From positions 1 to 25,930 of IMG/VR virus record IMGVR_UViG_3300020204_000333: a stretch of 25,930 bases of DNA, one strand, 5' to 3'. The first letter of the stretch is position 1. The number at the start of each line of letters is the position of its first letter. Positions 3,984 to 21,974 of this stretch are shown here, piece after piece. The position numbers and the translations under genes are program-made. This DNA comes from a virus. Under the pieces are notes generated by a model. That model had not been told where the DNA came from and searched no databases. It was given only the letters and a program-made list of their open reading frames with translations.

Positions 3984-4703
3984 ATGCCATTACCAAAGAT
4001 TGCGACTCCCACATTTGAGTTGGAAATACCTTCAATTAAAAAAACAATCAAGTATCGTCCTTTTCTTGTAAAGGAAGAAAAAATCTTAATTCTTGCAATG
4101 GAAAGTGAAGATCCAAAACAGATTGCAGAAGCAGTAAAAACTGTAATTTCAAACTGTATCCTCACAAAGGGAATCAAAGTTGCAGACCTGGCAACCTTTG
4201 ATATTGAATATATGTTCCTTAATATTAGGGGAAAGTCTGTTGGAGAAAATATTGATGTTCTAATTACTTGTCCAGATGATAATCAAACTCGGGTTCCTGT
4301 GAGCATTGATATTGATGATATTAATATAACCTATAATGAGGAGCACACAAGAGATATTAAATTAGATAGTGATTATACTTTGAGAATGAAATATCCATCA
4401 ATGCAAGAGTTTATTAAGAATAATTTTTCACAAACTACGGGCGTAAGTGTTGATGACACTTTTGATATGATTACATCATGTATTGAGCAAGTTTATTCTG
4501 AAGAAGAGTCTTGGGCGGCATCGGATGTAACAAAGAAAGAACTTTTAGAATTCGTTGAACAATTTACTTCTAAACAATTCAAAGATATTGAAAAGTTTTT
4601 TGATACAATGCCTAAACTTTCCCATATCGTTAAACTTAAGAATCCAAATACTCAGGTTGAAAGTGAGGTTGTCTTAGAGGGGTTAACAAGTTTTTTCGCC
4701 TAG
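3984..4703 (+). CDS. 26: gp26 baseplate hub / tail assembly chaperone
   Basis: The 239-residue protein matches the T4_baseplate family (T4 gp26). In T4, gp26 is needed for hub assembly and works with gp28, gp51 and the tape measure. Diagnostic stretches are MPLPKIATPTFELEIPS at the start, KTIKYRPFLVKEEKILILAM, DPKQIAEAVKTVISNC and FDIEYMFLNIRGKSVGENI. The C-terminal half is acidic and helical (MQEFIKNNF, DDTFDMITSCIEQVYSE). It starts 34 bases after the gp54-like gene. Its last codons form a slippery heptamer (4691-4697) just before the TAG, so some ribosomes probably enter the -1 frame and add the gp51-like segment. It lies directly upstream of the tape-measure candidate, the usual position of tail chaperone genes. 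Confidence 0.88.
   Translation: MPLPKIATPTFELEIPSIKKTIKYRPFLVKEEKILILAMESEDPKQIAEAVKTVISNCILTKGIKVADLATFDIEYMFLNIRGKSVGENIDVLITCPDDNQTRVPVSIDIDDINITYNEEHTRDIKLDSDYTLRMKYPSMQEFIKNNFSQTTGVSVDDTFDMITSCIEQVYSEEESWAASDVTKKELLEFVEQFTSKQFKDIEKFFDTMPKLSHIVKLKNPNTQVESEVVLEGLTSFFA
4691..4697 (+). promoter_or_regulatory. Slippery heptamer T TTT TTC for -1 frameshifting
   Basis: In the gp26 frame the bases read AG-T TTT TTC GCC TAG, a canonical X XXY YYZ slip site two codons before the stop. After a -1 slip the frame reads TTT TTT CGC CTA GCG ATG TCG and runs into the gp51-like ORF. Two possible stimulators follow: a short GCG/CGC stem at 4703-4712, and a six-base-pair ATGAGG/CCTCAT hairpin at 4713-4730. 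The second is farther away than typical stimulators. Confidence 0.72.
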
Positions 4704-4705
4704 CG

Positions 4706-4879
4706 ATGTCGCATGAGGATCTTGCCTCATATTATAAGATTAATTTTGCCCTCATGCAGCATCATAAATATAGCTTGACAGAACTAGAAAATATGATGCC
4801 TTGGGAAAGAGAAGTTTATCTCTCTCTTCTTGAACAGTATATCGAAGAAGAAAATCTAAAGAACAGTAAAAATGGCTGA
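4706..4879 (+). CDS. gp51-like small baseplate hub assembly protein (-1 frame partner of gp26)
   Basis: The 57-residue ORF reads MSHEDLASYYKINFALMQHH, then KYSLTELENMMPWEREVYLS, then a charged end (LLEQYIEEENLKNSKNG). The LTELENMMPWEREVY part resembles the short gp51-type hub-assembly segments of T4-like phages. It begins three bases after the gp26 stop in the -1 frame, and its stop overlaps the next gene's start by eight bases. No Shine-Dalgarno precedes the ATG; the nearest purine run, GAGGGG, is about 24 bases away. Independent initiation therefore looks poor, and expression as a gp26 fusion is more plausible. Re-initiation after the TAG remains possible. Only part of T4 gp51 (about 249 residues) is represented. 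Confidence 0.75.
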   Translation: MSHEDLASYYKINFALMQHHKYSLTELENMMPWEREVYLSLLEQYIEEENLKNSKNG

Positions 4880-6512
4880 GGCAGCAAACAATATTGTCCC
4901 TCTAACTGGATCTCCTTTATCAAGAGGGTCCAGAGAAAATATTAGCGCCAATATAACCGCATTCAATTCATTTATCAACGAACAGAAAAATCTTAATGCA
5001 CAAAAGACCCGTGCAGATGATTATCAAAATGTTCTGATTCAAGGCGGTCAAACTTCTGTTACTTCTCTTCAGAATCAACTTGAAGGGATTTCAAGAGAAC
5101 TTTCTTCATTATCACAAAACGTCAATACAATTTCTCAAACTGTTCAGCAACAGTCATCAGCAGAACAACTGAGACTTAATGCAGAACGAGAAAATCAAAA
5201 AAGACTTTCAGAAAGAAGAATTGCCATTGGTAAAGAGGGTGAATTAGAGCAAAGAATCGAAAATTCTTTGTCATCACCTGTTTTAGCGGTTCAGAATAAA
5301 GTTGGTAGCCTTTTTAGCAGAGTTGAGTCTGCATTTACAACTTTATTTTTAGGATGGCTTGGCAACTCAGTTATTAATTATCTTAAGGCACAAGCTGAGG
5401 GAGATGTTCAAAAACTAGGAGAAATTAAGAGAAAAATAGTTGGTGGATTAGTGATAGGGGTAGGTGCATTAGTTGCTGTAAAGACTGGACTTGGAATGGT
5501 TGGCAAAGCAATTAGTGCAGTTACGTCTGGTGTTGCAAGCCTTCTTTCAAAATTAGTTACTGCTCCTTTCAGATTGCTTGGTTCAGGAATAAGAGCATTA
5601 TCACCAGGAGGAGCAAAACCACCTGGAAAACCAGGAGGGCAACCTGGAGGTGGTCCTGGAGTTGGTAAATTTGTAACATTTTTAAGTTCTTTGATGAATT
5701 TTAGAAATGGTGAGATGGCTGATGGAATCTTGAGTGCCATGGCTCTTGCAGCTAAAGCTCCAGGAGCTATAGGTGCAATTGGAAAAATTGCTGGGATGGC
5801 ATTCACTGTAGACGAAATTGCCGAGGCACTTGGATCAAATATCTTTGGCAATGATAAAAGAAATAAACTGGTTCAAGAAATTGCTGAGGGAGCTACTAAA
5901 GATAAGGCAAAACCAGCACCAACATCTGTTGCAAGTCCACCTCCAGCTGCTAAGCAGTCATCCCCCCCTCCAGCAGAGGTAACTCCACAAACACCCATGG
6001 CTTCCCTTCCTGATTTGGTGGATTCTGGTTCAGGAGCTGTAAATGATACTCCAGAGGGGGCAGAACCACAAGCACAGGTGTCTCCATCTACATCGATGAC
6101 ACCACAATCATCTGACTTAATGGTAAATCCAGGTAGCACCACTACTCAACCTGGTGCCAGTGAGACTGGAAGGATCGATACTGATTCATCTCAACCTACT
6201 ATATCACAGGAGCAACGATCCTCAGAACCTGCCCTCACTAATGAATCTGATAAAACTAAACCAACAACTACTCCAGCTGCTCAAATCACTGCACCTCCAA
6301 AGGATACAAATAAAGTCACTGCCCTACCAGAAGTTCAACCAAATGTTGTGATTGCGTCCGATACGACTTCTGGTGCGATGGTTGATCAAGGAAGTCAAAG
6401 TTCTTCACAATCTAGACCAGCACCAAATCCTGATACTCCTTCAATATCATCATCTAATCCCGATAATTTTTATGTTCTATATTCTCAATTGAATTATAAT
6501 ATAGTGATGTAA
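4872..6512 (+). CDS. Tape-measure candidate / hydrophobic tail protein
   Basis: I do not recognise this 546-residue protein by name. Its layout suggests a tail tape measure or another tube-interior protein. Residues about 30-130 are a polar heptad-like helical region (LQNQLEGISRELSSLSQNVN, ENQKRLSERR). Residues about 150-245 are hydrophobic (LFLGWLGNSVINYL; a Gly/Ala/Val segment from about 190). A Gly-Pro linker (KPPGKPGGQPGGGPG) and a further Ala-rich helix region follow. Residues about 343-530 are Pro/Ser/Thr/Gln-rich and probably disordered. It follows gp26/gp51-like, as a tape measure follows its chaperones, and it resembles the next two genes in having an N-terminal polar helix followed by an LxGWL-type hydrophobic stretch. 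The length is near that of T4 gp29 (590). The disordered tail makes a pure ruler role uncertain. Confidence 0.6.
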   Translation: MAEAANNIVPLTGSPLSRGSRENISANITAFNSFINEQKNLNAQKTRADDYQNVLIQGGQTSVTSLQNQLEGISRELSSLSQNVNTISQTVQQQSSAEQLRLNAERENQKRLSERRIAIGKEGELEQRIENSLSSPVLAVQNKVGSLFSRVESAFTTLFLGWLGNSVINYLKAQAEGDVQKLGEIKRKIVGGLVIGVGALVAVKTGLGMVGKAISAVTSGVASLLSKLVTAPFRLLGSGIRALSPGGAKPPGKPGGQPGGGPGVGKFVTFLSSLMNFRNGEMADGILSAMALAAKAPGAIGAIGKIAGMAFTVDEIAEALGSNIFGNDKRNKLVQEIAEGATKDKAKPAPTSVASPPPAAKQSSPPPAEVTPQTPMASLPDLVDSGSGAVNDTPEGAEPQAQVSPSTSMTPQSSDLMVNPGSTTTQPGASETGRIDTDSSQPTISQEQRSSEPALTNESDKTKPTTTPAAQITAPPKDTNKVTALPEVQPNVVIASDTTSGAMVDQGSQSSSQSRPAPNPDTPSISSSNPDNFYVLYSQLNYNIVM

Positions 6513-6513
6513 A

Positions 6514-8400
6514 ATGGCAGTAGCAACTTCTATTCCCGTCCTAAACCTGAATAAAATTTCAACATCAGTTTATAATACAAAAAAGAAAATATCACTTACT
6601 AATCAAAGTATTTTGAGTAGAAACAATTCTATTCAAGAAAATATTACTGCACAAAAAAAATTAATAAATGAGAATAGCACTTATTATCGAAGACGAGAAG
6701 AATTAGATGAAAAAAATAAACAAGAAGCAGCTCTCGAAGCCCCAGATACTGTCAAAAAAATAAATTATATTAATCATTCAAGTTTGAGTTCTGTCAGTGA
6801 TAAAGGATTTATAGGTAGATTGCTATCTTTTGCTGGATATCTTGCCGCAGGATGGATTTTGACCAGACTTCCTACACTCATAAATTTTGGGGAAGGGTTT
6901 CTGGTTCGTTTACGAACGGCTAAAGATATTATAGGTGCTTTTTTCAGTAGCACACTAGAAGTTTTTCAAAGTTTTGGTAAATTACTTGGTAACGTTACTA
7001 CAAGTATTTTAAGAATAGGTATTACCGATAATCGTCTTTCACCTGGACAATATTCGTGGGAATCAGCAAACTCAATAAATCAAAATTTTGATCAACTATT
7101 AAATGGTCTTTCTAAATTATATGGTTCTTTGACCACAGCATTTTCTTTTATTATTGATCCTTTGGGATTCAAAATTGCGGAGAGAGAGGAAGAAGAATCT
7201 CGACAACAACAAGGACAATCACAGGATGCATATGCAGATGACGGATCTTCTGGGGCTATGCCCACGGGGTCCACGGGACCAATAGATTCTGGACCTGTGC
7301 CTAAAAATGATAGTGAAGCATTTGAAAAAGTAAGAGCAGCAGCACAGAAAGCTGGTTCACCTGCTCCAGATATTACCGCTGCAATTGCCATGAATGAAAC
7401 TGGATATCTAAGAAATCCTAATAGTGTCTATTTTGCAAGTAACAAAACAAATCCATTTGGTCAAACTGGTGTAGGTTCGGCAGGATATGTAATTGGTGCT
7501 GACAAGCAAAAGCACGCAGTTTATAAAACTTTTGATGAAGGTGTTGCTGTTCACGTAAGACTTTGGAAAAAGTATTACGCGGGAACCACTGCTGATGAAA
7601 TATTGAGAAGTTTAGTTGCCGCTGGGTATAATACCGCTACTGCTAGTTGGAGACCTACCACTGCCACAATTTACGAAAGATTTACTAAAAAAAGTAGAAA
7701 TGTTCCAGTTTCTTCTCAAGGAACTGCTGGTCCATCACCTTCAGGGATGGTGGATAGATCTCAACCTAATATTCAACCTAGTAAACCAACAGGAAAACTG
7801 AAATCTATCGGTGGCGGACATAGTTTAGATTCTGGTGGTGCAGCTGATGCGTATATAAAGATGAGGGATGAAGCAAAAAAACAAGGAGTTAATCTGACCC
7901 TTTCTTCATCTTTTCGTAGTTATGAACAACAAAATTATCTTTATCAATTGTATCTTAAGGGACAGGGGAATCTTGCTGCTCCGCCTGGTAGGTCTAATCA
8001 TGAAAAGGGTCTCGCCATTGATGTTGCTAATGGTATTCCTTGGGTTCAAAAGTATGGGTCAAAATTTGGATGGATAAACACAGGTATGGGATTTTCTCAA
8101 AAAGAACCATGGCATTTCGACTTCAAGGGTTCTGTTTCTCCATCTGCTACACAAGAACAAACAACACCTACACCTGCAGCGATTCAAAGACCATCAACCT
8201 CGACGGTAAATGTTGCAACTGAAAGACGGGGAGAAAACTATGTAGTAGTTGATCAAAGAAGTCCAAGAGTAAATACTAGTAGACAAAATAATTATGGTTC
8301 TTCAGGAAGTTCAGGAGGCAATATTCGTGAGGAAGATTTGGCAGTCGCATTTATGAATAACATGAAAAAAAGATTGATGAATGATTTAGCATATGTATAG
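6514..8400 (+). CDS. Tail-associated wall hydrolase: glucosaminidase-like plus VanY (M15) domains
   Basis: The 628-residue protein joins a hydrophobic anchor to two peptidoglycan-acting domains. Residues 1-80 are a polar helix (LNLNKISTSV, KKISLTNQSI). Residues about 98-125 are hydrophobic (LLSFAGYLAAGWILTRLPTLI). Residues about 266-395 resemble the GH73 glucosaminidase type: AIAMNETGY with likely catalytic Glu295, NKTNPFGQTG at 310-319, then AVYKTFDEGVAVHV. Residues about 430-545 match D-Ala-D-Ala carboxypeptidase VanY: SSSFRS with Arg468, SNHEKGLAIDV with zinc ligands His496 and Asp503, and EPWHFDF with His534. The end is KKRLMNDLAYV, shared with the next gene product. It would cut glycan and cross-link peptides at the host wall. 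It starts one base after the previous stop. The VanY call is firm; the glucosaminidase call is moderate. Confidence 0.8.
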   Translation: MAVATSIPVLNLNKISTSVYNTKKKISLTNQSILSRNNSIQENITAQKKLINENSTYYRRREELDEKNKQEAALEAPDTVKKINYINHSSLSSVSDKGFIGRLLSFAGYLAAGWILTRLPTLINFGEGFLVRLRTAKDIIGAFFSSTLEVFQSFGKLLGNVTTSILRIGITDNRLSPGQYSWESANSINQNFDQLLNGLSKLYGSLTTAFSFIIDPLGFKIAEREEEESRQQQGQSQDAYADDGSSGAMPTGSTGPIDSGPVPKNDSEAFEKVRAAAQKAGSPAPDITAAIAMNETGYLRNPNSVYFASNKTNPFGQTGVGSAGYVIGADKQKHAVYKTFDEGVAVHVRLWKKYYAGTTADEILRSLVAAGYNTATASWRPTTATIYERFTKKSRNVPVSSQGTAGPSPSGMVDRSQPNIQPSKPTGKLKSIGGGHSLDSGGAADAYIKMRDEAKKQGVNLTLSSSFRSYEQQNYLYQLYLKGQGNLAAPPGRSNHEKGLAIDVANGIPWVQKYGSKFGWINTGMGFSQKEPWHFDFKGSVSPSATQEQTTPTPAAIQRPSTSTVNVATERRGENYVVVDQRSPRVNTSRQNNYGSSGSSGGNIREEDLAVAFMNNMKKRLMNDLAYV

Positions 8401-8412
8401 CAGTAAAAGAAA

Positions 8413-10269
8413 ATGATAATAACTCAAATCAAACCAACTACACTTAATCTTGAAAAAATCTCAGGTTCCGTAGTTACCTCTAACAAAAAAATTGCGCTTA
8501 CAAATAAATCAATCACTCAACTTAATAAAAAAATTGAAAAAAATAATATACAAAGAAATAATTTATTGAACGAAAAAAAACAAGCAATAAAAAGACAATT
8601 GGAGTTTGATCGATTTAAGGAACAAGAGGCATCATTAGAATCTTCAGAAATAGTAAACATAAAACCAAGAGAATCACAAGAACTATTTCGATCAGGTTCT
8701 GGTGGTGGACTTTTTGGTAAACTACTTGGATTTTTTGGTTACATTGCTGCTGGTTGGGCGATTAGAAATTTACCTACTTGGATAGGTATTGGTAATGAAA
8801 TAATCAGGAGACTTGGTAATCTCAGATCAAATATTGCTATCTTTTTATATAACTTATATAATCCAGAAAAACAACCACCAGGAATTCTCCAGAATTTTAC
8901 AACTATAGTAAAAAGTGCTCTGGGATATGCCATGTCATTTGATTTTGAAAAAAGTTCAGAAGAGGTTCAAAACTCTATAAAAGGGCTAGTACAAAATATC
9001 AATAATATGGGAGATTCAATCAAAGACTCTATGAATCTCATTACAAAACCATTTGATATTGGTGGGGCAATTCCATCACCAGGTACCAATGTTGCTGATG
9101 AAGGTGCTTACACAAGTGGGTATACAAGCACAATGTCTGGGAGGGTCTTAGCAACAGACGCTAAGGCAACATACTATGATCCTGCACTTGGAGGAATTAA
9201 TGCAAGTGGCGCTAAAACGGCACAAGGACTTCCAGCAACTGCAACTGGTGAAGGTTATAGGTCAAACGTCTTTTCTGCTGCGGCATTTCCAGAACTTATT
9301 GCAATTTTGCCAGGTGAATATACTCGTCCTTCAAAAGGATTTCCTGGTGGAAAGACATTATCAAAACCAATCAATTTAATTGTCACTGATAGTAAAACAG
9401 GTAAGTCTGCAGTAATCAGAGTCAATGATGTTGGACCTGGCGTTTCTGGACACGCTAAAAATCATATGCTTGACTTTAGCGTTGCGGCAAAAAATTACTT
9501 TGGTGCTGCTAATATTAGTAGTGGATTAGAAATAAAATTAGCACCACCTGATGCTCAACCAGGACCACTTGATGCTAGTTCATCTAGGATGGTTACTTCG
9601 CCAGGTTCTGGAAGTAATATTGGACCTTCTATTCAACTAAAAGGATTTGCTGTAGAAAATCCAAGAGGACAAAAAGTAAAAGGATATTCTGGACTTACTC
9701 CACACCACAGTTATCAGTCAACAAGTGATGGTAGAGAAGTTAGAGACTTCACGATTTTTAAAGGAGATCAATATATAAATGCACCAGTTCCATCACCAGT
9801 TTCTGGAACAATTACTTGGACAGGATTTCTCACTGGTGGCGGTAACTGGATTGAGATTATGTCTAGTGCTGGAAAAGTAGAACTTGGGCATTTTAATAAA
9901 ATTCTAGTGCAAAAAAATCAACAGGTTTCGGTTGGAACTATTTTAGGATTGCAAGGTAGCACTGGTAGGTCTACTGGTCCTCATGTTCACATACAAGCAC
10001 CATCGAATGTTATTAGAAGTTATGTTGACGGATTAGTAAGTGGAACAATCATCGGGAGCTCCCCACCTTCTAAGATTCCAAATGCAATCGGTCCAGAGAG
10101 AACACCAACCAATATCATTATTCCAGAAACTCCAATAATAGAACAATCAGGAGCATCTTATGGCGATAGTGGACAACAGTCACCATCTATGACTTTACCA
10201 ATTCCTGAACTTACTGTGTTAAATAGATTTATCAAGAACAAATTACTTTTAGATTTGGCTTACAACTAA
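8413..10269 (+). CDS. Tail-associated wall hydrolase: RlpA-like plus M23 peptidase domains
   Basis: The 618-residue protein is a paralogue of the preceding one at both ends. Its N-terminus (LNLEKISGSV, KKIALTNKSI, KEQEASLES) and hydrophobic segment at about 104-125 (LLGFFGYIAAGWAIRNLPTWI) align with it, and it ends IKNKLLLDLAYN. The middle differs. Residues about 245-373 look like an RlpA double-psi barrel (ATYYDP, GINASG, RVNDVGPG with Asp339, MLDFSVAAKNYFG), a fold of septal lytic transglycosylases. Residues about 415-535 are an M23/LytM endopeptidase: TPHHSY at 429-434 followed by RDF (possible ligands His432, Asp445), GHF with His493, and STGPHVHIQ with His524 and His526. It likely cleaves cyanobacterial peptidoglycan during entry. 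The RlpA glutamate region is divergent, so transglycosylase activity is uncertain; M23 is firm. Confidence 0.82.
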   Translation: MIITQIKPTTLNLEKISGSVVTSNKKIALTNKSITQLNKKIEKNNIQRNNLLNEKKQAIKRQLEFDRFKEQEASLESSEIVNIKPRESQELFRSGSGGGLFGKLLGFFGYIAAGWAIRNLPTWIGIGNEIIRRLGNLRSNIAIFLYNLYNPEKQPPGILQNFTTIVKSALGYAMSFDFEKSSEEVQNSIKGLVQNINNMGDSIKDSMNLITKPFDIGGAIPSPGTNVADEGAYTSGYTSTMSGRVLATDAKATYYDPALGGINASGAKTAQGLPATATGEGYRSNVFSAAAFPELIAILPGEYTRPSKGFPGGKTLSKPINLIVTDSKTGKSAVIRVNDVGPGVSGHAKNHMLDFSVAAKNYFGAANISSGLEIKLAPPDAQPGPLDASSSRMVTSPGSGSNIGPSIQLKGFAVENPRGQKVKGYSGLTPHHSYQSTSDGREVRDFTIFKGDQYINAPVPSPVSGTITWTGFLTGGGNWIEIMSSAGKVELGHFNKILVQKNQQVSVGTILGLQGSTGRSTGPHVHIQAPSNVIRSYVDGLVSGTIIGSSPPSKIPNAIGPERTPTNIIIPETPIIEQSGASYGDSGQQSPSMTLPIPELTVLNRFIKNKLLLDLAYN

Positions 10270-11597
10270 TGTCAATTAATTCTTCTGTATTTGAAACATT
10301 AATACTAGAATCTAATAATCAGAAAAGAACTGTAGACATAGTTGAAGGTGCGGTCAGCATTGATTACTATGAAGATATTTTTTCACCAACTATTACTGCA
10401 AAAATTAAGGTAATAAACAGTAGCTCATCAATTGCTCCTGAAGGTGCTCCAGCACAAGAGAAACAATCAATTTATAACGGTTTGCCATTGAGAGGTGGTG
10501 AGAGAGTTGTGATGAAAATATCAGGAAATTCAGCAACTAATCCAGGATTAGATTTTTCTAAAAAACCTGCTGATTTTTTTATTGTTTCTAGTATTACTGA
10601 CATCGTATCACAAACAGAGTCAGAAAGTTTTACACTACATTTAATTTCTAGGGAAGCAATTACAAATGAGACTTCAAGAGTTTCCAGAAAGTTTTCAAGT
10701 TCTTCAACAATTGACAACTCCATAAAGGCAATACTAGAAGAGTATTTGAAAACTAAAAAGATAGGAACGATTGATAAGACCTCTAATTCTTATGGATTTA
10801 TTGGTAATCTAAAAAAACCTTTCACTACTTTGATTTGGTTAGCGTCAAAGGCAGTTCCCGCTGAAAGTGGAGCAAATGCAGGATTTTTCTTTTATCAGAC
10901 AAAGGACGGATTTCAATTTAGATCAATTGACTCTCTTATCAATCAAGAAAAGAAAGCGACATACACTAATAATCAGGGTGTAGAGTCATATGATTCTGAT
11001 AATAAAGCAGTAAATAATGATTTTTCAATCTTGAACTACACAACAACCAAGAATGAAAATTTGATTGAAAAATTAAGACTAGGTGCATTTTCAAGTCAAA
11101 GAATGTTTTTTGATCCAAATAAATTTACCTTTACAGGTGAACAACAGGGTTCATTTGGTCAGACACAGTATAAGAAAAAAACAAAAACACTAGGTAGAAA
11201 ACTTGATTTACCAAAAATATCTCCAGGTTCAGATAAGACTTTAGGAGATATTCCATCAAGAATTTTTACACAGATTTTAGATGTTGGAACATTAGAGCCT
11301 AAACCATCTAAAGAGACGAATTCTAATCCAATGGAATATCAAGCTCAGTCTCTAATGAGATATAATACTTTGTTTACTCAAGTATTAGATGTTACTATTC
11401 CATCGAATACAAATTTAAGAGCTGGAGATGTGATTGAGTGTATTTTTCCCAAAAACACACAGGCATCAACCAAGGAATCTGACCCAGAGATAAGCGGTCT
11501 ATATATCATAAAAGAACTATGTCACCATTTTGATAGTGATAATTCATATACATCGCTCAAATTAATTAGAGATACTTTTGGACAAAAAAGCAAATGA
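10269..11597 (+). CDS. gp27-like baseplate hub protein
   Basis: The 442-residue protein has the make-up of a T4 gp27 / VgrG-N-type hub subunit, the trimeric ring that links gp5 to the tail tube. The N-terminus (VFETLILESNNQKRTVDIVEG, then SIDYYEDIFSPTITAKIKV) is a typical beta-barrel start of hub proteins. A second barrel follows (FIVSSITDIVSQTESESFTL, REAITNETSRVSRKF), with a helical insert about 150-200. The C-terminal part (NTLFTQVLDVTIPSNTNLRAG, YIIKELCHHFDSDNSYTSL) matches the closing barrel. T4 gp27 is 391 residues. Its start overlaps the previous stop by one base, and its end overlaps the next gene by four bases (ATGA), the gene 5 partner expected for gp27. No enzyme motif is seen. Confidence 0.72.
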   Translation: MSINSSVFETLILESNNQKRTVDIVEGAVSIDYYEDIFSPTITAKIKVINSSSSIAPEGAPAQEKQSIYNGLPLRGGERVVMKISGNSATNPGLDFSKKPADFFIVSSITDIVSQTESESFTLHLISREAITNETSRVSRKFSSSSTIDNSIKAILEEYLKTKKIGTIDKTSNSYGFIGNLKKPFTTLIWLASKAVPAESGANAGFFFYQTKDGFQFRSIDSLINQEKKATYTNNQGVESYDSDNKAVNNDFSILNYTTTKNENLIEKLRLGAFSSQRMFFDPNKFTFTGEQQGSFGQTQYKKKTKTLGRKLDLPKISPGSDKTLGDIPSRIFTQILDVGTLEPKPSKETNSNPMEYQAQSLMRYNTLFTQVLDVTIPSNTNLRAGDVIECIFPKNTQASTKESDPEISGLYIIKELCHHFDSDNSYTSLKLIRDTFGQKSK

Positions 11598-14011
11598 TAG
11601 ATGAATCTTTACTTAAGAGTAATTTTATAGGAAGAGATGGATTTCGTTGGTGGATTGGACAAGTAGCACCTGGAGAGGCACAAGGAGAACAATCAAATGG
11701 TGGTGGTTGGGGAAATAGAATTAAGGTTAGAATTTTAGGTTATCACCCTTATTCCGAAACAGAATTATCAAACGATGATTTGCCCTGGGCACAAATTTTA
11801 TTGTCTACATCAACTGGTAGTGGTGCTGGAGGTTGTGCCACCAGTCATAAACTAAAACCATCTGATGTTGTTTTTGGTTTCTTTCTAGATGGTGATAATG
11901 CTCAGATTCCCGCAATTATTGCGTGCTTTGGAAAAACATCTGATATTGAGAAGGGTTCAGAATCTTATGAGTCACCATTCACTCCTTTTACTGGGTATAC
12001 TGATAGGGTCAAAAAACCTAGTGGACCGCTAAAGGGTGATCAAAGTAATGAAGGAAACTCTAATTCACAAAAATCACCACGAGATGTTTCACCAGCAATT
12101 GTTAATAAACTAAATCAGGAAAATCCAGATGATTTAGAGGTTCCTTACTATACAGGTGTTGGAAAAACAATTGTACTTGCAAATTCTTGTGGTGACACGG
12201 CACTAGCAGGAATGACTGCAGAAATTGATAATCTTCTTCAAAAAGTTCGTGATGGATTAGATGCAATCAGTAATCTAGATTTAGAAATTAATAGTTCTGT
12301 CGATAAAATTACTGGCATAATGAACATTTATACTGGTCAAATGATGAGAGAATTATATACTCAACTCATTCCAGCTCTCAATGACGGGTTGAAATTACTT
12401 TATGAAACTGTTTATAACGCAGTTTTAGCTGCTACAGGGAGTACAACAATCGCTCATTTAGCTGGAGTCGCTGCTCAAACTGCAATGCTTATTCCTGTTA
12501 AACTTTTAGAAGATGGATTACAAACTGTGGGTGCTTTAGTTGTTGATCTTGCATCTGGTTCAATTAAGGAACTCCTTTCTGGCATGTTGAATAATGTTGA
12601 TAATTTAGTGCCTTGTGCAGCAGAGCAATTCTCTGGGGCATTATTGAATAATACACTAGATAATTTTCTTGGAGCTATGGGTCCTCTTTTGGATGGAGTT
12701 TCAAAACTCTTAAGTTTGGTTGGATTTAATCCAGAGTCATCAATGCGTTCTACAATTGAATCTTTCCAAGCAATAGGGGGATTATTTATGGGAGGTCAGT
12801 CACAAGGTAAGTGTTCTGGAATTGTAAAAGAATGGGTAATTGGTACAGGACCCAAAGATCCTGGTTGTGAAGAATCTGCCTACCAATCAATCCTTAATAA
12901 TATGAATAATGCAGCTGCAATTGGAAAAGGAGTATTAGAGGCAGTTGGAAATGTTCAGAATCTTTTGACAGATGTAGGAAACATTGTAGATGATGTGCAA
13001 CAAGCTTTCCAACAAAAATATGGAACTTTTGATATCTTTAGTGGTGAACCTAAAGATCCAAGTTCCCCTTGCTATACTGGACCTCCAATTTCAAAATCTC
13101 CACCACAAGTACGCATTTTTGGTGGCGGTGGAACTGGCGCAACAGCTATTGCTCTTTTAGGTGATATTGTACCTACAAGATCAACAGACATAGTAGATAT
13201 TACAAATGTTAAGACTGCTAGTGTATTGGGTGTGGAGATTACAAATGGTGGTTTTGGATATGTAACACCACCATTTGTTGAATTTTATGACGAGTCAAAA
13301 CAAGGATATGGCGCCGTGGGTAGAACATTTATTGATACAATTCCAAATTCACCAACTTTTAGTCAAGTTACAGGAGTGGAGATGGTTTCAGTGGGAGAGA
13401 ATTATCCAGTCGGATATGCTCAGTTAGATTATAATATTAATTCAAACATTGCCGTAATTGCGGTTCAAATTATTAATCAGGGCAAAGGGTATTCTCAAAA
13501 AGATACTGCTTCGGATAATCTTGGTAATAATTATAAACTTTCTGTTAAGGATGGAAAAATTATTTTTGCACAAGTTTCAGATACTAAAAGAATTGATGAG
13601 TTACCAATAATTACTGTAACGACAAAAACAGGGAGAGGCGCAGTATTAAAACCAATTCTTGGAAGAGTTAGATTTAATCCTCCAGAGGAAATTGTAAGAG
13701 TTATTGATTGCCCAACACCTTCACTAACATCTGAAGTGGTAAAAACATCTTCCACTGCTATTGATACCGTAACACCTGTTGCATTATCCACTCCTACCCC
13801 CACTCCCACTCCCACTCCCACTCCCACACCCACACCCACCCCCACTCCTACCCCCACACCCACTCCTACCCCCACACCCACACCCACTCCTACCCCCACT
13901 CCCACACCTACGCCTACACCTACCCCCACACCCTCTCCTACCCCCTCACCTTCACCCTCACCATCTCCATCTCCAGGTGGTGGCGGCGGCGGAGGCGGTT
14001 ACGGTTACTAA
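11594..14011 (+). CDS. 5: gp5-type baseplate hub protein without lysozyme domain
   Basis: The first ~115 residues match the OB-fold domain of T4 gp5: FIGRDGFRWWIGQVAP, NRIKVRILGYHPYSE, DLPWAQILLSTSTGSGAGG and VVFGFFLDGDNAQIPAII. The T4-type lysozyme domain is absent. Residues about 190-490 are instead a long Ala/Leu-rich helical region with several Cys. Residues about 505-710 are beta-rich with three copies of a G-x-GY motif (ITNGGFGYVTPP near 548-559). Residues 733-794 are an uninterrupted Thr-Pro then Ser-Pro tract, and the end is eight Gly plus YGY. The T4 gp5 C-terminal beta-helix is also absent and seems to be supplied by the next gene. In T4, gp5 forms the puncturing device under gp27. 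At 805 residues it is much longer than T4 gp5 (575). Confidence 0.78.
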   Translation: MIDESLLKSNFIGRDGFRWWIGQVAPGEAQGEQSNGGGWGNRIKVRILGYHPYSETELSNDDLPWAQILLSTSTGSGAGGCATSHKLKPSDVVFGFFLDGDNAQIPAIIACFGKTSDIEKGSESYESPFTPFTGYTDRVKKPSGPLKGDQSNEGNSNSQKSPRDVSPAIVNKLNQENPDDLEVPYYTGVGKTIVLANSCGDTALAGMTAEIDNLLQKVRDGLDAISNLDLEINSSVDKITGIMNIYTGQMMRELYTQLIPALNDGLKLLYETVYNAVLAATGSTTIAHLAGVAAQTAMLIPVKLLEDGLQTVGALVVDLASGSIKELLSGMLNNVDNLVPCAAEQFSGALLNNTLDNFLGAMGPLLDGVSKLLSLVGFNPESSMRSTIESFQAIGGLFMGGQSQGKCSGIVKEWVIGTGPKDPGCEESAYQSILNNMNNAAAIGKGVLEAVGNVQNLLTDVGNIVDDVQQAFQQKYGTFDIFSGEPKDPSSPCYTGPPISKSPPQVRIFGGGGTGATAIALLGDIVPTRSTDIVDITNVKTASVLGVEITNGGFGYVTPPFVEFYDESKQGYGAVGRTFIDTIPNSPTFSQVTGVEMVSVGENYPVGYAQLDYNINSNIAVIAVQIINQGKGYSQKDTASDNLGNNYKLSVKDGKIIFAQVSDTKRIDELPIITVTTKTGRGAVLKPILGRVRFNPPEEIVRVIDCPTPSLTSEVVKTSSTAIDTVTPVALSTPTPTPTPTPTPTPTPTPTPTPTPTPTPTPTPTPTPTPTPTPTPTPTPSPTPSPSPSPSPSPGGGGGGGGYGY
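13790..13975 (+). repeat. CCCACT-type microsatellite coding a Thr-Pro / Ser-Pro tract
   Basis: About 31 Thr-Pro or Ser-Pro dipeptides are coded by six-base units such as CCCACT, CCCACA and CCTACC. The plus strand is almost G-free. The minus (template) strand has many GGG runs separated by three-base loops, for example GGGAGTGGGAGTGGGAGTGGG, which fits the G-quadruplex consensus. Loss or gain of whole units keeps the reading frame. Confidence 0.9.
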
Positions 14012-14836: not shown

Positions 14837-17800
14837 ATGCCAGCACCAGAAAATAGATTTATAGTTGGCGAAGAGGCGTGGTTTTATCAGAATGCTAAGT
14901 TTTTCCAACAAATAGAGGCAGAACTTTTCAAAGGTGACATACAATCACCAGAGAATTCTACATTTAATAATGTAAGAATTAATGGTGGAATTTATGATTC
15001 TGCAAATTTTTCTGGTAATATTGGTGATCTTGTTTTATCTGACGGTAATGGGGGTTGGTTTTGGGGTAATGTTGGATATGGAACAGAACTTCAGGCTGCG
15101 AAGTTTAGAAAAACTTCTCTCACTGAAGATATCAATGTAACTTATGCGAATAGAGTTCCTATTCGATTTGATTCTGAAGTCTATAAAACTGACTTTTTTA
15201 CGCATTCTAATACAACTATACCCCAAAGAATAACTATCAATAATAATGGTATTTACATTATCAATATCAATATTGGTATTGATAACACTGGTGCGGCAGA
15301 GGTAAATCCAATATGCTCTATTTTCCTAAATGGAGTTGAAGTTACACAAACAAGAACCACTACCTACAGTGGTGGAACAGCAGCAGGAAATGGTAAAAAC
15401 TTACAGATTGCAACACAAGCATTAATAAATGCTGGAGACTATATTGAAGTTTATGCCTGGATGGACCAGGCAGATCAAGCAACACCAGTCAACACAATTG
15501 TCAATGCTACTGAGTTTTCAATTCTCAAAGCTGCTACTAGAGGACCTCAGGGTGTTCAAGGATTGCAAGGAGTTCAAGCAACTCAAGGTCTTCAAGGTAA
15601 TCAAGGTCTTCAAGGTGCTCAAGCAACACAAGGTGGTCAGGGTCTTGCTAACCAGGGTATTCAAGGTCTTCAAGGTCTTCAAGGTCTTCAAGGAACTCAG
15701 GGTGTTCAAGGAACTCAAGGTGTCCAGGGACCTCTCAGTAACTTTCAAGGAACACAAGCAACCCAGGGGAATCAAGGTCTTCAGGGTCTTCAGGGGACAT
15801 CAGTTCAGGGTACACAAGGTTTACAAGGTACACAAGGTCTTCAAGGTGGACAAGGAACTCAGGGTCTTGCTAATCAAGGTGTTCAAGGAACGCAAGGTCT
15901 TCAAGGTCTTCAAGGAGATCAGGGTGTTCAAGGAACTCAGGGACTTTCTAATCAAGGTGTTCAGGGAACACAAGCAACTCAAGGAACTCAAGGTCTACAG
16001 GGATCCCAAGGTCTTCAAGGATCTCAAGGTGTTCAAGGTCAACAAGGAACTCAAGGTGATCAAGGTGTTCAAGGCACCATTGGAGATCAAGGAACACAAG
16101 GTCTTCAAGGTAATCAAGGAACTCAAGGTCTTCAAGGTCTTCAAGGCAATCAAGGAACTCAAGGAACCCAAGGAACTCAAGGTCTTCAAGGAGATCAGGG
16201 TATTCAAGGAACACAAGCAACCCAGGGGATGCAGGGCAATCAGGGTGTTCAAAGCCCACAAGGAACACAGGGTCTTGTAGGACCTATTGCTGGTGATCCA
16301 AATCAGGTAATATATAAAAACCCACAAAATATACCATCTGGTTCAGAAAACTTCAAGTTTTATGATTATGAATCATTGGTCACAGTTGGCGAACAAAGTG
16401 GTGCTGGTATTGTTAGTGCCACTACTTTTAAGGGTGAGGGCTCGCAACTAACTGGAATTGTTACAAGTGTTATTCCTGGAATTGGAATTGATATTGAGTC
16501 TACACAAGCAAATGGAAAAGGAATTGTAGAAATTACTTCCTACAAACCAGTAGGAAGAACAATCTATGTTTCATTAAACGGTAATGATGATAATACTGGG
16601 TTGGCAGAAAATCATCCGAAAAGAACAATTAAATCTGCGGCATCGGTAGCTTTATTTGGTGATACAATCAAACCATTTCCAGGAACTTATGTTGAAGAGA
16701 ATCCAATTGTTCTGGCAAAAACAGTTTCTGTTGAAGGGACAGAACTTAGAAACGTGGTGATTACTCCAAAATATCCAGAGAGAGATTTATTTTATGTTAA
16801 TAGCGGTTGTCACGTTACAGATGTTAGTTTTAGAGGACAACCTTCAACAAATGGGGCTGCTATCGTTGCCTTACAACCACTATTAGGACCATCATCAGAT
16901 AGATATTTTGATGCTGCAAGATTGCTTCGTTTCAATCTTGATTATATTGCAAGAGAATCTGTTGGATTCTTAACCAGTGGATTTAGTGGATTTGCAGGAA
17001 GTCATCGTGAACAAGATGCAGCAAGACTTCTTGATTTGAATACTGGATTTATTGCAGCAGAAGCAGTTGGATTCTTGACATCTCCATCAGGATATAATTT
17101 TAATTTGAATAGTAATGATTATACAAACTGTAAAGAAGACGTTGTAAGTATTATAGATGCTGTCGCTAAAGATTTGAAAGCAAACAGTAATAGAAATTCA
17201 ATAGGTGCTGGATTTTCTTACTATAATAATTCTGGTGGATTGATTCACATTACTGGGATTGCAACCCAACAGGCTACAATTGCTGCGTTTGATTATGCTA
17301 TAGGAATTGCAACTCATGTTATTAATAACTTGACCCCACCAATTTCATACCAGTCTGGTGTTGGGAGCATAACTCAATTCAAAGATCTATCAGTTATTCA
17401 AGTTGCGGGTGGTTGTGTTGGTGTTGGAACTACAATCAGACAACTTGTTGGAATTATAACAAGTATGATTGGTATTGGAACAACTGCGGCTCCTGCAATT
17501 CGTTATGGTGTTAATCTAGATTCTATTGATTGTGCCGATGATATCAAAGACATTTATAAAGCAGTTTCTTTTGATATTACAAGAGGTGGTAATGCAAAAT
17601 GTGTTGGGGCTGCAAAGTCATATTTTAATGATGACTTCAATTTCATTCCTAACACACTCAAAAATCCCGAAGAAGTTAAGCAGACAGTTGCTACCCTTGA
17701 CTATTCATTTAATATTGCAAGAGCGGTTGTAAACAACTGCACATGGGGTGGATACCCAGTAGGTCTTGGAACAACGGTTGTTAATGCAGTGTATGATGCA

Positions 17801-20800
17801 AGCACAGGGATAACCACAATTACTGCGAATAATCATGGACTTGTCAAAAATGATGCGGCAAGAATTACTGGGCTGCTCTATGAGTGTGATAATGGTTCCC
17901 CAGGATTTGCAATTACAGTTTCTACCGCAACATATGATAAGACAACTGGTATATCAACAATTACATTGTCTTCTTCTCTAGATATCGTATCTGGAGAAAG
18001 AGTAAGACTAAATGATCTAGTTTTTATATGCGATAGTGGTGGTGGACCATCAACAGCATCTTATCCTAGTGGTAACCTTGGATATGATTTTACAGTTCTT
18101 GATGTAATAGAACCACCACCATCACGTCTAAGAAGGTCATCAACTAAATTTACGGTCAATGTTGGTGTTTCAACTCTTGATCACACCTATGTTTCTGGAG
18201 GAACTGCTAGGAGACTTTATACTCCAGTATTTGGAATTTCTACCGCTTTTTATGATAAACTCACTGGTATCACAACAATTACCACTGTCGGGTTGGGGAC
18301 AACTGTTGGACCACATCTTTTCATTGAACCTAATAAAAAGGTAAAATTAGAAAATCTAGTATTCATTTGTGATAGTGGTGGTGGACCTGCAACAGCATAT
18401 TATCCTAGTGGAAATCTTGGATATGAGTTTAATGTTATCTCAACAAATAATGATCGTTACGTCGATGCCTCTAATCTTATAGAGTCAAATAAAAATGAAA
18501 TCATTGATAAATCTTTAGCCGCAATAGCATTATCTTTCCCAGACTTTTATTATCCAAATGATTTACAAACCACTAGATTTTCTAGATTCAAAGACTCATA
18601 TCGCCTCATTCAATTAAATAAACAAGAAATAGTCGGAACTGCTTGGACTAATACTTATAATGTTTATCCAGGAATATCCACAACAATGGATAAGTGCAAA
18701 CGAGATCTTGCATATTTTGTTGATGCAGTTTCAACGGATGTCTTTAGTGGAGGAAATACTTACACAATTCAATTTACTAAAACATATTTCAATTCATCTG
18801 GCGCTCCTATTTCTAATGGATTAGTTGGAGAAATAACAGAATCTGTTTATGCATTCAATCAGGCAAGAAACCTGATGAAACTTGCAATTACTAATAATCT
18901 AACTATCACTGATCTTACAATTACTGCTGATCCTGGAACTGGCATTAATACCAGCACAGCATCTTGTGCGGATGTTCAACAGGCAATTAATACTTTAGTT
19001 TCTATTGCAACCACTGCATTTACCAATGGTTCATTAACTAATGTCAATAAAATTCGTGTGAATAATGGGGTATTTCCTGCAGGAGAAAATAAGTGTCGTA
19101 GGGATTTAGGATTTATTGTTGATGCACTTATTAAGGATGTAAGATATGGGACTAATAAGCATATTCGTGAAGCCACGAGATCTTACTTCACCGCCGCTGG
19201 TGTCCCAATTTCGGATGGATTGGTTGGAGAAACCGCACAGTCAATTGTCGGGTTCCATTCTGTGAGAGATTATGCAAAACTTGCAATTAATAATCAACTC
19301 AATAATAGAGACTTAACAATTACGGCTGATCCAAATCCAGGAATCGGAACCACTTCAAATACAAATCCATATTCTTGTGCCGATGTTCAGTCAAATATCG
19401 ATAATCTTGTCGGTATCCTTACATCAACTATTGGGATAGGAACTATAGGTCCATCTTTCCCAGATCTTTATGTTTCTAATAAAGTTAAGGTCAATGTTGG
19501 AGTTTCAACTTTAGATCACATTTATGTGACTGGTGGAACCCTCACCGCAAATTATACAACAAAAATCTTCCCAGATGGAACTTTTAATTACATTTTCCCT
19601 GTTAAATCTGTTGTAGGTCCAAACACATTTACTTTTGTTGCAGGTAAAACAGTTCTCCCTCATACTTATGTTTCGGGGGGAACAGTTGAAAAATATAGAA
19701 ACTTCCAACCAACATTCACTCAAGTAAAAGACATGTCAATTCAGATTGACGGTCAAACAGGATATAATGATGCTCTCAATTCATGTAAAAATGTTATTTC
19801 TGCAATTCGTTCTTGTGTTGGAGTTGTAACAAGTATTGTTGGACTTGGATCAACAGCACTAAAATCTGGTTCTGTCGTTGTCCCTGCTTTTGGTGGTAAT
19901 TCTGGATATGGATTCACAGATATTGTTGGTATAACTAGTGCGATTTATGAGGGGGAAACTGGAAAGACAACAATCACAGCACCTGGACTGATTGTTAGGG
20001 AAGGCGATCCAATTGAACTTAGGGATTTGATATTCTCTTGTACTTCTGGAACAGGGATTGGAACGACAACTCAAAAATTCCCATCTGGTAAATTTGGATA
20101 CGAATTTTATGTTGATGAAATTAATTCAGATAATACTTTTGAAATTTATGTTGGTGTATCAACATTAATACATACTTATATCTCTGGTGGAACAATAATC
20201 AATCGTGCAATACCTGTCTCTTTCGCAACGTATGATCACATAACTGGCGTCACAACCATTACAGCACCAGGAGCGTTTGTTGATATTGGTGATGTTGTAT
20301 CTGTTAGAGATCTAGAATTTATTTGCACTAGTGGAGCTGCTACAACAACAATCTATCCTACATCTAATACTGGATATAATTTTGCGGTAGAGGAAGTCAT
20401 AGGATATGGGTCAACTTTTGTTATCAATACAGGAATTAACACCATCCCTCATTATTACTTGACTGGTGGCGTTGTTGTTCCTCCTTACTCAAGAGGAACT
20501 GGGCCAATTGATCAGGGACCATATATCAGAAATGCTACCAATTTTATTGCCAATAGTATTGGGCTAAAAGTTGATGGTTTCAACGCTGAACCTGGAGATA
20601 AAGATGATATTGGCGTGACTGGAACAATGTCTGTAGACTCTTATACACAATTTAATCAAGGTGGTATTGGAGTATCAGTTACAAACGGAGCATATGCTCA
20701 ATTAGTTTCTATTTTTACAATCTGTGACGATATTGGAATCTTTACTAAATCTGGAGGACAATGTGATATTACCAACTCAAACTGCTCATTTGGCAACTTT

Positions 20801-21613
20801 GGTCTTGTCTCTGATGGTGTTGGTGATGCGACTTCAAAATCAATTTATCGTTATACCGCTCAATCCGTAGGAGAAGCGCAAATTGAAACTGATGAAATAG
20901 TTGTTTCTGGTGTTGGCACTTATAGACCTTACGATGGACAGGCAATTTATTTTGGTGATCTTTATAATACAGTATCTCGTATCGAGGTAACAAATGGTGG
21001 AAGTGGATATCTTTTCCCACCAGATGTAATAATCAGCGCCCCAACTGGTCCAAATGGAATTACTGCGGAGGGAAGTGCAAACATTGATGCGACAGGAACA
21101 GTAATATCGGTTGATGTAATTAGTTCTGGATCTCAATATTCAACACCACCAACAGTTACATTTTCTCCAATTGGTGGAGTTGGTAGCGGTGCTGCTGCAA
21201 TATCATTTTTAGAACCAATTTATTTTAATATTCAAAGTGCAACACTTCCTGTTGCAGGAATCTCAACCATCACTCTATTATCAAATCTAAATAGTACGAT
21301 AGGTGCTGGTACAACAATTTATTTCTCAAGATTGAGTTTGCAAATTGCAACTTCAATCTCACTAGAATGGGTTGGATCTGGAACAAATATTAATACAGCA
21401 AAACCATCTCTGGGTGGAGTTACAATTCAACCAAATGAAGTTGATAAAATTAGAGGTGGACAAGTTGTATATACCAGTACAAACCAAGCAGGTAACTTCC
21501 AAATTGGAGATAATGTAGTTATTAACCAACTTACAGGAACAATTTCAGGTAGAGCCTTTAGTCAAAGTCTGTTAAATACAGTAACTCCTCTCATTATTGC
21601 GTTAGGTAAGTAA
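14837..21613 (+). CDS. Giant fibre/adhesin: C1q-like domain, collagen-like stem, beta-helix-like and repeated modules
   Basis: This 2258-residue protein is probably a tail or baseplate fibre. Residues 1-100 resemble a fibre attachment start (MPAPENRFIVGEEAWFYQNA). Residues about 100-232 look like a C1q/TNF jelly roll (VPIRFDSEVY, ITINNNGIYIININIGI, CSIFLNGVEV, YIEVYAWMDQ, TEFSILKA). Residues 236-485 are collagen-like Gly-X-Gln triplets. From about 572 a pectate-lyase-like right-handed helix start appears (YVSLNGNDDNTG, KRTIKSAASVA, PGTYVEENPIVLAKTVSVEG). The remainder alternates Cys-containing helical modules (CKEDVVSIIDAV, CADDIKDIYKAV, CKRDLAYFVDAV, CRRDLGFIVDAL) with beta modules ending HxYxxGGT. 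Near the end come two G-x-GY/PP repeats and a closing domain (GGQVVYTSTNQAGNFQIGDN). A weak AGG site precedes the ATG. The domain calls are inferences from pattern. Confidence 0.75.
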   Translation: MPAPENRFIVGEEAWFYQNAKFFQQIEAELFKGDIQSPENSTFNNVRINGGIYDSANFSGNIGDLVLSDGNGGWFWGNVGYGTELQAAKFRKTSLTEDINVTYANRVPIRFDSEVYKTDFFTHSNTTIPQRITINNNGIYIININIGIDNTGAAEVNPICSIFLNGVEVTQTRTTTYSGGTAAGNGKNLQIATQALINAGDYIEVYAWMDQADQATPVNTIVNATEFSILKAATRGPQGVQGLQGVQATQGLQGNQGLQGAQATQGGQGLANQGIQGLQGLQGLQGTQGVQGTQGVQGPLSNFQGTQATQGNQGLQGLQGTSVQGTQGLQGTQGLQGGQGTQGLANQGVQGTQGLQGLQGDQGVQGTQGLSNQGVQGTQATQGTQGLQGSQGLQGSQGVQGQQGTQGDQGVQGTIGDQGTQGLQGNQGTQGLQGLQGNQGTQGTQGTQGLQGDQGIQGTQATQGMQGNQGVQSPQGTQGLVGPIAGDPNQVIYKNPQNIPSGSENFKFYDYESLVTVGEQSGAGIVSATTFKGEGSQLTGIVTSVIPGIGIDIESTQANGKGIVEITSYKPVGRTIYVSLNGNDDNTGLAENHPKRTIKSAASVALFGDTIKPFPGTYVEENPIVLAKTVSVEGTELRNVVITPKYPERDLFYVNSGCHVTDVSFRGQPSTNGAAIVALQPLLGPSSDRYFDAARLLRFNLDYIARESVGFLTSGFSGFAGSHREQDAARLLDLNTGFIAAEAVGFLTSPSGYNFNLNSNDYTNCKEDVVSIIDAVAKDLKANSNRNSIGAGFSYYNNSGGLIHITGIATQQATIAAFDYAIGIATHVINNLTPPISYQSGVGSITQFKDLSVIQVAGGCVGVGTTIRQLVGIITSMIGIGTTAAPAIRYGVNLDSIDCADDIKDIYKAVSFDITRGGNAKCVGAAKSYFNDDFNFIPNTLKNPEEVKQTVATLDYSFNIARAVVNNCTWGGYPVGLGTTVVNAVYDASTGITTITANNHGLVKNDAARITGLLYECDNGSPGFAITVSTATYDKTTGISTITLSSSLDIVSGERVRLNDLVFICDSGGGPSTASYPSGNLGYDFTVLDVIEPPPSRLRRSSTKFTVNVGVSTLDHTYVSGGTARRLYTPVFGISTAFYDKLTGITTITTVGLGTTVGPHLFIEPNKKVKLENLVFICDSGGGPATAYYPSGNLGYEFNVISTNNDRYVDASNLIESNKNEIIDKSLAAIALSFPDFYYPNDLQTTRFSRFKDSYRLIQLNKQEIVGTAWTNTYNVYPGISTTMDKCKRDLAYFVDAVSTDVFSGGNTYTIQFTKTYFNSSGAPISNGLVGEITESVYAFNQARNLMKLAITNNLTITDLTITADPGTGINTSTASCADVQQAINTLVSIATTAFTNGSLTNVNKIRVNNGVFPAGENKCRRDLGFIVDALIKDVRYGTNKHIREATRSYFTAAGVPISDGLVGETAQSIVGFHSVRDYAKLAINNQLNNRDLTITADPNPGIGTTSNTNPYSCADVQSNIDNLVGILTSTIGIGTIGPSFPDLYVSNKVKVNVGVSTLDHIYVTGGTLTANYTTKIFPDGTFNYIFPVKSVVGPNTFTFVAGKTVLPHTYVSGGTVEKYRNFQPTFTQVKDMSIQIDGQTGYNDALNSCKNVISAIRSCVGVVTSIVGLGSTALKSGSVVVPAFGGNSGYGFTDIVGITSAIYEGETGKTTITAPGLIVREGDPIELRDLIFSCTSGTGIGTTTQKFPSGKFGYEFYVDEINSDNTFEIYVGVSTLIHTYISGGTIINRAIPVSFATYDHITGVTTITAPGAFVDIGDVVSVRDLEFICTSGAATTTIYPTSNTGYNFAVEEVIGYGSTFVINTGINTIPHYYLTGGVVVPPYSRGTGPIDQGPYIRNATNFIANSIGLKVDGFNAEPGDKDDIGVTGTMSVDSYTQFNQGGIGVSVTNGAYAQLVSIFTICDDIGIFTKSGGQCDITNSNCSFGNFGLVSDGVGDATSKSIYRYTAQSVGEAQIETDEIVVSGVGTYRPYDGQAIYFGDLYNTVSRIEVTNGGSGYLFPPDVIISAPTGPNGITAEGSANIDATGTVISVDVISSGSQYSTPPTVTFSPIGGVGSGAAAISFLEPIYFNIQSATLPVAGISTITLLSNLNSTIGAGTTIYFSRLSLQIATSISLEWVGSGTNINTAKPSLGGVTIQPNEVDKIRGGQVVYTSTNQAGNFQIGDNVVINQLTGTISGRAFSQSLLNTVTPLIIALGK
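15542..16291 (+). repeat. Collagen-like Gly-X-Gln repeat, giant fibre gene
   Basis: About 80 triplets of the form GGN-NNN-CAA/CAG lie between a GPQ start and a GLVGPIAGD end. Interruptions include GLANQ, GLSNQ, GTSVQ and GPLSNFQ, and Gly is replaced by Ala in several ATQ triplets. Proline is nearly absent inside the tract. The lack of stop codons makes other frames look open as well. Confidence 0.93.
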
Positions 21614-21615
21614 AA

Positions 21616-21969
21616 ATGGCAGTAATTGCACTTAATAAATTTCGAACGATAAGAGTTGGTATAACGACTAATTTAGTTGGAATTTATACTTGCCCAACTG
21701 GAGTAGCAACAATTGTGATTCTCTCCCAGGTAACTAATGTCGCTGCTGCAGGAAGTGTTTTTTCAGTTACTGCGATTCACTCTAGACCTTCAGAGATTCC
21801 GTCCGATTATAAATTTGCAAATGCAATTCCAATTCCTTCAAATGATAGTTTGAATTTGATTACTGATGGAAGACTCGCTCTTGAAACTAATGATGTTATC
21901 AAAATTCAAGGTAATGCGAATGATGTCTTGCAACTTGTTTTGAGTGTACTTGAAACCGCGAAGCAGTAG
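21616..21969 (+). CDS. Small beta-rich protein between two collagen-like fibre genes
   Basis: I cannot name this 117-residue protein. It has alternating hydrophobic strands (FRTIRVGITTNLVGIYTCP, VATIVILSQVTNVAAAGSVF), then PIPSNDSLNLITDGRLALET, NDVIKIQGNANDV and a helical end. The 'DGRLALETND' pattern suggests a beta-sandwich like those of small virion decoration or fibre-associated proteins, but that is an impression. It begins two bases after the giant fibre stop, with AGGTAAG as ribosome site, and five bases before the next collagen-like gene. It therefore belongs to the fibre operon and could be an adaptor, cap or folding partner. It has no signal peptide or clear membrane segment. Confidence 0.72.
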   Translation: MAVIALNKFRTIRVGITTNLVGIYTCPTGVATIVILSQVTNVAAAGSVFSVTAIHSRPSEIPSDYKFANAIPIPSNDSLNLITDGRLALETNDVIKIQGNANDVLQLVLSVLETAKQ

Positions 21970-21974
21970 CATAA

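Follow-up and report, generated by a model that had tools for sequence, protein, structure and literature searches.

In a 25,930-base virus fragment with T4-like tail genes, analyzed here over its full length and hereafter called the window, the junction between genes 26 and 51 is very probably a site of −1 programmed ribosomal frameshifting, as judged from its sequence and from its relatives. Most ribosomes would finish gp26 at the zero-frame TAG stop (4701–4703), and in a minority both tRNA-Phe would re-pair one base back on the slippery heptamer T TTT TTC (4691–4697), a slippage probably helped by a downstream RNA hairpin. After the slip, reading would continue as CGC CTA GCG ATG... to generate a gp26–gp51 fusion of 298 residues. 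By homology to T4 gp26/gp51 and by analogy with lambda gpG/gpGT, the short and long forms would handle the tape-measure or hub proteins while the tail is being built and would then leave the finished particle. The initial annotation had proposed this −1 join, and evidence gathered across relatives strongly supports it: the conserved slip signal, a codon constraint, a covarying hairpin, missing gp51 start codons, and the homology of T4-type gp51 to the whole fusion. We infer both that the frameshift occurs and that the window's own, altered hairpin stimulates it. Joining gp26 and gp51 would correct the annotation of abundant ocean phages and provide a well-defined signal.

The gene 26–gene 51 junction and its slip site

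Gene 26 occupies positions 3984–4703 of the plus strand, which also carries the other features of the junction and the next gene, and encodes in the zero frame a 239-amino acid protein, the short form of a putative tail-assembly chaperone. The protein matches the Pfam family T4_baseplate (PF12322; 1.1e-73, 248 bits against a curated cut-off of 24.5) and PHROG_150 (4.3e-81), and its nearest cultured relative is in Synechococcus phage S-SRM01, followed by the Prochlorococcus phages P-SSM5 and P-SSM2. The 3′ codons of the gene, read from the window, are AGT TTT TTC GCC TAG. As initially annotated, the heptamer at 4691–4697 is in the correct phase for −1 slippage; its position, described at that time as two codons before the stop, is corrected to a single intervening sense codon (GCC). 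The −1 frame is open from CGC at 4697 to the TGA at 4877–4879, a 60-codon extension (4697–4879, RLAMSHED...KNG) that would form the C-terminal part of the long form and that is open in every checked relative with the slip site.

Within this extension lies a 57-codon ORF with an ATG start (4706–4879), called gene 51 in cyanophage relatives and annotated as a separate gene in P-SSM2 and S-PM2. Noted from the outset as coding-like, it matches PHROG_634, ‘baseplate hub assembly catalyst’ (5.9e-27), over only the C-terminal part (about half) of that profile. The ORF was also termed hidden, a description that fits its joining, as gp26 and gp51 are joined in none of the annotated records examined, but not the gene, which cyanophage annotation already lists. 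The same ORF matches the C-terminal end of PHROG_150, the profile of the gp26 family (positions 238–278; 2.6e-7), suggesting that some members of this family are fused gp26–gp51 proteins, and the ATG at 4706 is probably only an internal methionine codon of the fusion. A full-length independent gp51 of the T4 type, with its own start and an N-terminal gp26-like domain in one gene, is not found in the window, since the gp26-like part would come from gene 26 via the frameshift.

The window contains 13 copies of the motif TTTTTTC, versus 13.8 expected. The motif alone is no evidence, and the case is carried by phase, position, and conservation. The lack of a Shine–Dalgarno sequence at the ATG of the ORF is real but proves nothing, as the other genes compared also have weak sites, and we dropped it as evidence for frameshifting. 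Searches of the window against Rfam and for tRNAs gave no match, and nothing meaningful emerged from sequence searches of NCBIfam and the PDB.

An alignment of the gp26/gp51 junction in relatives, as the initial annotation had proposed, revealed that the heptamer and the −1 relation are conserved. The exact in-phase heptamer is present in 79 of the 80 closest IMG/VR relatives. Among 274 related gp26 genes with a readable stop, 267 carry an in-phase T TTT TTN at their end (C in 211, A in 30, T in 24, and G in 2), located 0–1 codons from the stop, or nine in one case, and the −1 extension that follows has no early stop in any of the 267. Elsewhere in gp26 genes, an in-phase T TTT TTN is found at 21 of 59,533 codon positions, corresponding to ~0.0035 expected per 10-codon stretch. 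Codon choice is equally strict at this site: in 64 non-redundant close relatives, the two slip phenylalanines are encoded by TTT (64/64) and TTC (64/64), versus 507 TTT and 172 TTC for phenylalanine elsewhere in gp26 of the close set (75% TTT; TTC 172/679). In these 64 relatives, the third base is invariant in the three slip codons and, Met and Trp aside, in no other codon column of the gene. This comparison makes it near-certain that the slip signal is under selection.

The heptamer is found in Kyanoviridae and reaches phages only ~25–30% identical, namely Stenotrophomonas phage YB07, Delftia phage PhiW-14, Aeromonas phages Ahp1 and ZPAH1, Vibrio phage phi-Grn1, Xanthomonas phage X1, Caulobacter phage Cr30, and Sinorhizobium phage phiM9. 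Vibrio phage 1.081 is a further distant T4-like carrier. The last base varies: it is T in Cr30 and the Methylophilales phage Melnitz, G in phiM9, and A in RHph_I1_18 and Psh_XG4 (T TTT TTT, T TTT TTG, and T TTT TTA, respectively). Searches of viral contigs with proteobacterial gp26 queries returned almost no matches. The heptamer is absent from T4-type phages, where the codons are TTC TTT, from Ackermannviridae, and from Vibrio phage D493. A gene pair lacking the slip site had been named at the start as an observation that would speak against frameshifting; such pairs do occur in Ackermannviridae and D493, and T4-type phages have a separate long gp51. In our comparison, these exceptions are side lineages, and the window's own clade is untouched by them.

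Some gp26 endings deviate from the common pattern. In four Ackermannviridae sequences (L104, L279, L280, and L281), the heptamer is missing and the −1 extension is conserved right after a fixed GA(A/G) ATT TTC AT(T/C) TAA; in Se_AO1 and FKP10, the extension has no start codon near its N-terminus. This ending could be a non-canonical frameshift. In a Stenotrophomonas phage sequence (L103, around 2220) whose gp26 is 100% identical to that of YB07, the slip run is one T shorter than in close relatives, probably a homopolymer sequencing error.

A covarying hairpin downstream of the heptamer

In relatives, a hairpin with an 8-bp stem and a 9-nt loop starts 8 nt past the heptamer (e.g., ATGGCTCA/TGAGTCAT, ATGGCGCA/TGCGTCAT, and ATGGCACA/TGTGTCAT). 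All eight pairs form in 50 of 66 distinct sequences and seven pairs in 13 of 66. The sixth pair is T-A in 31 of these sequences, G-C in 26, and A-T in 5, a three-way compensatory covariation. Specifically, the base on one side is the third position of a codon that mostly encodes Ala (GCT, GCG, GCA); it tracks a downstream Glu/Ala/Val codon (GAG, GCG, GTG), and its changes are mostly synonymous. Mutual information peaks at exactly this pair, with 1.18 bits versus 0.56 for the next, and 96% of pair cells are formed in register versus 18–48% when the register is slid. On a tree built from gp26 without the hairpin region, the two sides of the sixth pair changed at least 11 and at least 12 times, jointly only 13, so most changes coincide. 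Well-supported branches alone provide three independent pairs, all three concordant, a number too small for significance. Across 129 loci, local folding energy is lowest between +12 and +44 relative to the heptamer (−8.8, compared with a mean of −2.65 and an sd of 1.1); outside the close set, loci also show a minimum in this interval, formed by other stems.

The hairpin of the window is weakened and atypical. In the conserved register, with arms at 4706–4713 and 4723–4730, it forms six of the eight pairs, and an alternative fold with two stems is more stable. The latter comprises a small stem-loop at 4703–4712, which is not conserved, and a stem-loop at 4713–4730 with a 6-bp stem (ATGAGG/CCTCAT) that overlaps the 3′ arm of the conserved hairpin. 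These are the two stem-loops initially annotated as possible; they correspond exactly to the minimum-free-energy fold of the window (−10.4 kcal/mol), but this fold taken alone is unremarkable (z −1.3, not significant), and the hairpin of relatives lies in another register. We set the window-only fold aside as evidence for frameshifting.

Status of gp51 and competing explanations

In Tevenvirinae (T2 and HY01), gp26 is homologous to the short form, and the 249-amino acid gp51 is homologous to the entire fusion: both gp51 proteins align collinearly with the fusion profile from end to end, passing through the junction (hmmsearch 3e-16 and 1e-16; hhalign 98% for T2). These phages differ from the window in having no slip site and in carrying gp51 as an independent gene on the opposite strand. 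Because gp51 aligns over the full length of the fusion, T4-type phages seem to have hard-wired into it what frameshifting would produce in the window and its relatives. This reading agrees with PMC10885494, according to which a short gene plus a separate long fused gene take the place of frameshifting in some T4-like phages. Cyanophage gp51 has been described as only about one-fifth the length of T4 gp51, with no mention of a frameshift (PMC3037559); frameshifting would explain the short protein, the remainder being supplied by gp26. The comparison gives a clean view of T4 relatives replacing a frameshift by a second gene. A natural in-frame gp26–gp51 fusion, with the T-run of the slip site broken, is present at positions 1501–2391 of L039; a second gp26 copy was searched for in this 236-kb record and was not found. 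Either the L039 lineage lives on the fusion only, or its consensus sequence is in error here.

If gp26 and gp51 were separate proteins, gp51 could be made by termination–reinitiation at the ATG at 4706, two bases past the gp26 stop, and the T-run would reflect a conserved Phe-Phe. An ATG is indeed present in the window and in 98 of 150 non-redundant loci, databases annotate gp51 apart from gp26, and T4-type gp26 keeps the Phe-Phe as TTC TTT, indicating that the residues themselves matter. However, 46 of the 150 loci have no ATG, GTG, or TTG among the first seven codons of the extension, whose protein sequence (RIALSHDSLENYY...) is conserved even without a start codon, its upstream residues included. 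With a start codon missing near the N-terminus in so many loci, gp51 can hardly be a free-standing gene and is probably no separate gene at all. Reinitiation also leaves unexplained the invariant TTT-TTC and the invariant third-base T before it, which the protein sequence does not require, and the homology of T4-type gp51 extends over the fusion rather than being limited to the short ORF. Some reinitiation at the window's ATG is possible; as the account of the junction, we regard it as improbable. Evenly balanced, in our judgment, is a broader claim: that the frameshift uses a conserved, covarying hairpin as stimulator, with its coding sequence under dual RNA and protein selection, and that in about one-third of relatives gp51 lacks a start codon and is made solely by frameshifting, so that the annotated 57-amino acid cyanophage gp51 would be no independent gene.

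The fusion could also arise by transcriptional slippage on the T-run, with RNA polymerase rather than the ribosome changing frame, and the element common to all carriers is a homopolymer of six to seven T. Yet this run is short, is not lengthened in relatives, and keeps a fixed reading phase relative to the codons, and the conserved hairpin covaries as RNA 8 nt past the heptamer, the usual spacing of ribosomal stimulators. On these grounds, slippage during transcription is highly improbable. Least credible of all, and close to negligible, is that the −1 ORF reflects a sequencing artefact or an overlap that is fortuitous or decaying: the heptamer by itself occurs in the window about as often as expected by chance, and occasional indels are seen here (one T fewer in L103, the in-frame join in L039), but the intact extension is conserved in hundreds of separate contigs and in cultured phages.

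Proposed chaperone function and the downstream tail genes

With −1 ribosomal frameshifting as the preferred reading, gp26 and the fusion would likely form a two-form tail-assembly chaperone similar to lambda G/GT. The initial annotation had made the same suggestion, which fits the homology and published work on T4 and which we retain as an interpretation. The AlphaFold model of the window's gp26 has a pLDDT of 88.5. Compared with the PDB, it has no significant match; the highest-probability matches include the HK97 tail assembly chaperone 2ob9 (probability 0.69, E 1.4) and 3fgx, a protein that is uncharacterised (0.57). Comparison with viral models gives a match to gp51 of phage ZZ1, a ‘baseplate hub assembly catalyst’ (E 1.5e-5). 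Only gp26 was modeled in this way because a mixed alignment of gp26 and extension rows misplaced the gp26 C-termini. A single-sequence AlphaFold prediction of the fused L039 protein was of no use (pLDDT 34).

Lambda gpG/gpGT are likened to gp26–gp51 by arrangement, and the lambda heptamer differs from the gp26 T-run. The arrangement consists of a short chaperone and a minor −1 fusion with a C-terminal extension, and this scheme for tail genes has been described as widely conserved ‘except T4’ (PMC5009743). T4 gp26 and gp51 are listed as hub assembly chaperones, with gp51 needed for assembly and absent from the final particle; other studies place gp26 in the hub (PMC3004832). The tail-assembly chaperones of Vandenendeviridae and Andersonviridae likewise have a conserved −1 frameshift at a poly-T motif ending the short chaperone gene; they differ in belonging to other phage families and in their motif, given as GTTTTT, and the available portion of the source mentions no downstream hairpin (PMC12846349).

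The initial annotation knew of no description of such frameshifting in this family, a point on which it is weaker. A 2022 study of T4-like chaperones reportedly concerned genes 26 and 51 themselves. According to PMC10885494 and PMC12846349, this study (Vladimirov, Gautam and Davidson, Virology 2022, doi 10.1016/j.virol.2021.11.003) identified the tail-assembly chaperones of T4-like phages, and the latter paper refers to it when describing poly-T −1 slip sites of these phages; the title of the 2022 study stresses a mechanism other than frameshifting. To judge from these citing papers, the central idea, frameshifting in T4-like chaperone genes, has very probably been published already. What may go beyond that study is the covarying hairpin, the start-codon loss, and how broadly relatives were surveyed.

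Large coiled-coil genes follow gp26–gp51 in the window, and in Cr30 and RHph_I1_18 a tape measure is annotated two genes after the gp26–gp51 pair. The next gene of the window (4872–6512), which overlaps the end of the −1 ORF, encodes 546 amino acids with a coiled-coil N-terminus and is, by position only, a possible candidate for a tape-measure or hub protein. The two neighboring large tail proteins beyond it (6514–8400 and 8413–10269) share a paralogous N-terminal region of ~150 amino acids (37% identity, 1.9e-19) and differ in their peptidoglycan-cutting domains: the former has VanY plus glucosaminidase, the latter an M23-like peptidase. One of these two proteins may be the tape measure. Farther downstream, an 805-amino acid gene (11594–14011) ends in a (Thr-Pro)n run followed by glycine-rich sequence (about 13790–14011). 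Very long collagen-like GTQGLQG repeats occur in two tail-fibre-like genes at 14837–25930, where the repeat also generates long ORFs in other frames as by-products.
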